45,407 nucleotides of DNA from Peptococcaceae bacterium BRH_c8a (lineage in GTDB: Bacteria; Bacillota; Desulfotomaculia; Desulfotomaculales; Desulfallaceae), in NCBI GenBank assembly GCA_000961575.1, contig LADP01000026.1, positions 1 to 45,407 on the forward strand, in the 5' to 3' direction. Below the pieces are notes generated by a model. That model saw only the letters and a list, made by a program, of their open reading frames with translations, was not told where the DNA came from and ran no database searches. The translations under genes were made by a program, and so were the position numbers. The first letter of the stretch is position 1, and each line of letters opens with the position of its first letter. Below are positions 23,659-24,191 of this stretch, one piece after another.

Positions 23659-23710
23659 GGCATTTAACAACCCGGCCGTGTGCCGATATGTTAATGATAT
23701 GATTTTTAAT

Positions 23711-23736
23711 GGGGTCAGGGCTGGAGCCCTGACCCC
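23711..23736. terminator. Bidirectional hairpin between convergent genes
   Basis: GGGGTCAGGGC, loop TGGA, GCCCTGACCCC: an 11-bp perfect stem. It lies between the FmdB gene and the convergent selenoprotein gene and could end both transcripts, although the T-run is poor. The GGGGTCAG arm is shared with the repeat at 5920. Confidence 0.65.
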
Positions 23737-23751
23737 AAAGTTTTGAAGCTT

Positions 23752-23982
23752 TTAATGAAACAGCTTTTCTAATTTATCCCGGTCGAAACCAACTACATAT
23801 TCGTTACCAGTGGCCACCGTTGGTACCGCCATCTTACCGGTGCGGGAAACCATTTCGTTACGGGCCTCTGTATCCTCAGCTACATTAATTTCCTGGTACG
23901 GCACACCTTTCTGGGAAAGAAACTCTTTCACCGTGCGGCAGTGTGGTCACGTTGGTGTGGTATAAAGCTTAACTTGATCCAT
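23752..23982 (-). CDS. Selenocysteine-containing glutaredoxin-like protein (in-frame TGA)
   Basis: This minus-strand gene starts at ATG 23982 with AAGGGGG 9 nt upstream and reads MDQVKLYTTPT-[TGA]-PHCRTVKEFL. It then continues as a complete glutaredoxin fold: GVPYQEINV, the cis-proline motif KMAVPTVA, VVGFDRDKLEKLF, stop at 23754. Total length is 76 residues if TGA (23949-23947) is decoded. The TGA takes the place of the first Cys of the CPxC redox motif, giving U-P-H-C, as in known Sec-containing (Uxx-type) glutaredoxins. A hairpin suited to a SECIS follows at once. The protein would be a thiol/selenol redox enzyme of the cytoplasm. The alternative is a nonsense mutation, which would have to hit exactly this codon. 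Ordinary ORF finding misses it. Confidence 0.85.
23902..23949 (-). promoter_or_regulatory. Candidate bacterial SECIS element
   Basis: On the minus strand, just after UGA, CACAC (23945-23941) pairs with GTGTG (23906-23902). Inside, GAAAG (23929-23925) pairs with CTTTC (23919-23915) around the apical loop AGTTT. The loop starts 22 nt after the UGA and has G at its second position, as expected of bacterial SECIS hairpins outside the E. coli type. It was folded by eye only. Confidence 0.7.
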
Positions 23983-24191
23983 ACCTAATTGCCCCCTTGT
24001 CAATCTTTACTTTTTATTCTGCCCGCACAAACAGCGGGGCATTACGAAATGCAGCGGTAAAATATGCTATATTTAAGTAGTGCTACTCTGATTACTGTTC
24101 CTTAAAGGAAAAATTTCGCCGGTGTTGAACATAATACCCTTAACGGATATGTTTGTTCATCCAGGGGCCGCGGACAGGAGTGTGGCACGAA

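Follow-up and report, generated by a model that had tools for sequence, protein, structure and literature searches.

The gene and its surroundings

The window, that is, the whole 45,407-nucleotide stretch of DNA analysed here, carries on its minus strand (23752..23982) a gene of 76 residues for a YruB-type glutaredoxin with a predicted selenocysteine (Sec), which is recognized by its reading frame, by Pfam and NCBIfam matches and by homologues throughout the order. The gene runs from ATG to a terminal TAA, and the minus-strand translation from 23982 to 23752 is MDQVKLYTTPT*PHCRTVKEFLSQKGVPYQEINVAEDTEARNEMVSRTGKMAVPTVATGNEYVVGFDRDKLEKLFH*, with a single internal TGA. This TGA is codon 12 (23947..23949, minus strand) and occupies the position of the catalytic Cys of CPHC, the product motif being TTPT-U-P-H-C; from the translation and the order homologues it is predicted to encode Sec, the catalytic residue of UPHC. 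The TGC of codon 15 (23938..23940, minus strand) is the predicted resolving Cys of the same motif. An in-frame TAA starts 27 bases before the ATG, and a Shine-Dalgarno-like AAGGGGG, read from the sequence, lies 9 nt 5' of the ATG (23992..23998, minus strand); with a loose word set, a purine-rich word of this kind is found near the start in all 53 orthologues that have enough upstream sequence. The original prediction of a glutaredoxin frame broken only by a TGA at the first Cys of CPxC (U-P-H-C) is borne out by the translation, and a candidate for the ribosome site it claimed is present. It was also right that standard ORF callers lose the gene, since the mechanical ORF list (≥60 amino acids) has no minus-strand ORF at this place; small selenoproteins can go missing in this way.

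Between the codons 3' of the TGA and those of the nearest relative (L025) there are 16 synonymous and 5 non-synonymous changes, and third positions hold 17 of the 22 base changes. Judged from these substitutions, the codons downstream of the TGA are under purifying selection. Because the changes are mostly synonymous and the TGA is common to the order, the frame and its TGA are not due to chance.

Just 3' of the gene lies a perfect 13-bp inverted repeat with a 2-base loop (23710..23737), a possible terminator, which has a single exact copy in the genome and separates the glutaredoxin gene from a convergent small gene, presumably for an FmdB-type zinc ribbon. The repeat is possibly a bidirectional terminator. 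An Rfam search of the flank gave two mir-129 matches and one ALIL match, all under their gathering scores, and both mir-129 matches fall on this repeat. The other neighbours, which we take to be aro genes, a MobA-like gene, an XRE-type regulator and a penicillin-binding protein, include no functional partner that could be found in the genomic context of the glutaredoxin gene.

TGA and Cys forms among relatives, and the hairpin past the TGA

When 113 genomes from the order were searched with a threshold of E 1e-10, 70 matches turned up in 61 of them, and all 70 were then read: 56 have one in-frame TGA, 13 are free of stops and one has a TAA. The TGA stands at codon 12 in every one of the 56 TGA forms (48 aligned without gaps and eight more distant copies), and the 48 gap-free sequences, 47 of them distinct, have Cys three residues past the TGA in 47/47. 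At the Sec column the stop-free matches have TGT or TGC (Cys) in 13/13. Homologues with either Cys or U in this column, which the original prediction had told one to look for, therefore exist, and the downstream part, whose absence in close relatives would have spoken against it, is kept. The Cys genes are not all independent, as four of the 13 come from one genus (G080-G083); these four are outside the usual locus, judging by the one neighbourhood examined (L070). Another Cys gene (L069 of G111, TGC) shares the gene neighbourhood of the window gene, and L068 (G093, TGT) that of the Pelotomaculum-type loci. The match with a TAA (L071, contig C126 of G013) is a degraded copy, with gaps as well, in the window gene's own family, and on its sequence represents loss of the glutaredoxin gene in one lineage. 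In addition, a one-contig genome of 3,025,375 bases (G094, contig C1) has two Sec-type glutaredoxin copies (L040 and L073), the second of which is outside the usual neighbourhood.

Beyond the order, 92 of 398 genomes drawn from the phylum have a match at 1e-14, and one in-frame TGA, counted irrespective of its position, is found in 56 of 100 matches and in 26 of the best 30. The closest named record is Desulfotomaculum sp. BL5_bin.2 (a metagenome-assembled genome), whose protein is 92% identical, and further protein matches are from Desulfoscipio, Desulfotruncus, Pelotomaculum and Desulfofundulus.

A putative bacterial SECIS hairpin, proposed from folding and codon constraint, follows the TGA (23913..23932, minus strand; stem GG(U)GAAAGA, loop GUU, UCUUUCCC). 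It starts 14 nt past the TGA codon, spans 17 to 36 nt counted from the first base of the TGA and has its loop G 23 nt past the TGA. In bacterial SECIS elements the apical-loop G lies about 16-37 nt past the UGA, and the distance in the window falls within this range. Among the 47 distinct aligned Sec-class genes used for codon counts, the hairpin codons are nearly uniform (Val18 GTG 47/47, Glu20 GAG 46/46, Phe21 TTT 39/44 and Leu22 CTT 44/47), whereas outside the hairpin the Val residues of codons 27 and 53 and the Glu of codon 31 are encoded without such restriction; the other narrow-codon columns (8, 28, 43, 61 and 71) are scattered and form no run. As read from this codon usage, the hairpin fixes codon choice in the Sec-class genes. 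The loop is GTT in 44, GTA in three and TTT in one of 48 sequences.

The hairpin was scored as marked where the fold of a 27-nt segment was matched by no more than 5% of 200 synonymous recodings. This mark is passed by 47 of the 56 TGA genes, namely 43 of the 48 aligned genes (mean z -3.3) and four of the eight distant copies, the z of the window gene being -3.4, and by two of the 13 Cys genes (L068, z -4.9; L156, 1.5% of recodings); a further Cys gene, L157, comes near it (9% of recodings). With 45-nt segments the mean z of the 48 genes against synonymous recodings is only -1.7. Synonymous recodings across orthologues single out the hairpin; dinucleotide shuffling of just the window sequence does not, and by that measure the fold of longer window segments is not unusual (z -0.48, -0.60 and 0.08). 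No compensatory changes were seen in the stem among the 48 sequences: three of the six stem pairs are invariant, one is A-U or G-U, and two are broken in five of the 48 each. The lower stem with its bulged U is not constant among the sequences.

The Cys gene L068 (G093, contig C38, 5802-6044) has TGT at the Sec codon and keeps the SECIS-like hairpin. On a midpoint-rooted tree of 53 rows and 73 columns, in which many forks are unresolved, a starred branch (96/89) unites it with 47 Sec rows, and an unstarred one (90/83) puts it within a group of 22 Sec rows; two changes are needed to account for the Sec and Cys labels on this tree. Because it is nested among Sec forms and has kept the hairpin, L068 is likely to have undergone a recent reversion from Sec to Cys, its hairpin being a fossil. 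L156 (G092, contig C157) is a more distant glutaredoxin copy with TGT at the Sec codon, the motif CSHC and a hairpin that folds, and L150 and L153, which are closely related to it, carry TGA at that codon; L156 is perhaps a second such reversion. With both forms, Sec and Cys, occurring in one shared neighbourhood, a hairpin mostly confined to one class and an apparent recent reversion, the order constitutes a natural experiment, by which gain and loss of Sec become directly testable in one small protein.

Predicted Sec decoding in the window genome

The window genome (4.17 Mb in 48 contigs) has all of selA, selB, selC and selD, the genes which the original prediction wished to see. On contig C7 a single selA (612 bits) adjoins the one selB that exceeds the cut-off (388 bits), and the tRNA-Sec (selC) has the anticodon TCA. 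Two selD genes over the family cut-off, L021 (contig C46) and L022 (contig C6), each have one in-frame TGA. These two selD genes clearly differ from each other within the one genome. The tRNA-Sec was found on two contigs (L013 and L014), with no difference over 2205 bases as far as a contig end (100% identity); a duplication was rejected on this ground, and the two loci are probably one gene seen twice through an assembly overlap. Since selA was found in 107 of the 113 genomes of the order, its co-occurrence with the TGA gene is expected and not informative. Three genomes with a TGA form gave no selA match; these (G028, G059 and G099) are 64-84% complete.

That the gene is a pseudogene or the product of an error, the TGA being a true stop or a miscalled TGC or TGT, is very improbable. 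Such a reading would agree with the loss of the gene to mechanical ORF finding and with the degraded copy in G013; against it stand the fact that 56 of the 70 order matches have TGA as codon 12, including 47 distinct sequences among the 48 gap-free ones, the purifying selection 3' of the TGA and the Sec machinery in the genome. Miscalling in particular is ruled out, because the 56 TGA forms come from separately assembled genomes. Translation of the UGA as a different amino acid, by a code in which TGA is Trp or by plain read-through, is hardly credible: no point in its favour was found, the stop-free matches have Cys and not Trp in 13/13, and selA, selB, tRNA-Sec and the TGA-containing selD genes are present. 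Decoding of UGA codon 12 as Sec is strongly supported by these comparisons of sequences. SelB together with Sec-tRNA-Sec would read this UGA, as the machinery and the hairpin suggest, and insertion would be directed by the hairpin that starts 14 nt past it.

Family, proposed mechanism and known relatives

Once the stop is replaced by U, the product matches the Pfam Glutaredoxin profile PF00462 at 1.8e-20 (73.3 bits, cut-off 22.9), and the match spans residues 4-63 and the whole profile. Its AlphaFold2 model has a mean pLDDT of 90 and a pTM of 0.77, and 7c10 (TM 0.90, rmsd 1.1 Å) is second in the list of similar folds after 3ic4. By the curated cut-offs, which were compared for the window protein only, it passes TIGR02196 GlrX_YruB (96.6 bits against 88.55) and does not pass NF041212 Uxx-star (63.2 bits against 66). 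Both models match 15/15 aligned members (15 of the first 30 loci), NF041212 at E ≤0.001. By its sequence scores, the window protein is a YruB-family glutaredoxin that narrowly misses Uxx-star. The Uxx-type label of the original prediction stands in so far as Sec glutaredoxins are a known kind, and falls in so far as NF041212 stays under its cut-off and TIGR02196 is over it.

The folded glutaredoxin may act through Sec12, which would attack oxidised substrate proteins or disulfides, with Cys15 then resolving the selenenylsulfide, as the UPxC motif and glutaredoxin-1 (cGrx1) of Clostridium oremlandii suggest. Re-reduction would probably be by a thioredoxin-reductase-like flavoenzyme and not by glutathione. 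NrdH is reduced by thioredoxin reductase. The window genome has no match to the glutamate-cysteine ligase family PF04262, and it has one thioredoxin reductase over the cut-off (L143, 392 bits) and a second just under it (L144); the lack of a PF04262 ligase and the presence of thioredoxin reductase favour an NrdH-like, glutathione-free cycle. Taken together, a Sec12/Cys15 oxidoreductase that is decoded with SelB and the hairpin, and for which thioredoxin-reductase-like re-reduction is probable, is a reading of the sequence that we hold with high confidence. A wider proposal is put forward tentatively and with some doubt: the protein could be a glutathione-independent, thioredoxin-reductase-driven, NrdH-like seleno-redoxin inherited at a stable locus by many members of the Desulfotomaculales, it could provide a selenium-dependent redox step in those sulfate reducers and syntrophs which do not make glutathione, and at least one lineage, Pelotomaculum sp. 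PtaU1.Bin035, could have reverted from Sec to Cys with a fossil SECIS.

Two other views of the activity have to be weighed. It is improbable that the protein is an NCBI Uxx-star seleno-glutaredoxin which binds metal and performs no disulfide exchange. The NF041212 score just short of 66 and its matches to all 15 aligned members lend themselves to this view, and according to a 2026 review (PMC13188914) the Sec of UXX-star proteins may coordinate a metal, but TIGR02196 is passed, the second Cys is kept in 47/47, and cGrx1, the near double, is a disulfide reductant according to its paper (PMC7642778). Dependence on glutathione, as in classical glutaredoxins, is rather unlikely; the cGrx1 paper does have the disulfide then reduced by GSH (PMC7642778), but no ligase was found in the window genome in a search that used PF04262 only. 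The disulfide-exchanging Sec12/Cys15 oxidoreductase with thioredoxin-reductase-like re-reduction is preferred to both.

Among solved structures cGrx1 (PDB 7c10, 7c12 and 7c13) is the best relative by sequence, with 52% identity over 73 columns, and it is a selenoprotein with a UPHC-type site, as is predicted for the window protein; its authors give the native selenoprotein a U(or C)PXC motif, which is CPHC in the Cys variant (PMC7642778). The proposed partner of cGrx1 is a Sec-type MsrA. Such a pairing was considered for the window genome and rejected, as the single MsrA found there has no in-frame TGA. A further difference from cGrx1 is that the window gene sits in a gene neighbourhood shared by members of the order. 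The window protein exceeds the cut-off of TIGR02196 and differs from this family in having its first Cys replaced by a predicted Sec; a 2022 review already files one selenoprotein with the motif UxxT there (PMC9312934). The Uxx-star family of glutaredoxin-like (seleno)proteins (NF041212) has a similar domain, for which the window protein scores under the cut-off. The name of the model suggests that its Sec is at the same column.

The UxxC glutaredoxin is listed among known selenoproteins in two reviews (PMC13188914 and PMC9312934). Furthermore, a 2006 survey of bacteria names glutaredoxin selenoproteins in Moorella thermoacetica, Alkaliphilus metalliredigenes and Geobacter sulfurreducens, and counts three of them in its Table 1, where no Sec-to-Cys event is given for glutaredoxin (PMC1794560). 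Those proteins, like the window gene, are from anaerobes. In the open-licence literature searched there was no paper on a selenoprotein glutaredoxin in Pelotomaculum, and absence from print is not claimed. Compared with the 2006 survey, the order of the window has the Sec form as a common one together with one suggested Sec-to-Cys event (L068), which, if L068 is indeed reverted, is a kind of glutaredoxin event lacking in the table of the survey (PMC1794560). Selenoprotein glutaredoxins are therefore already known as a kind of protein, and the window gene is a well-supported further member.
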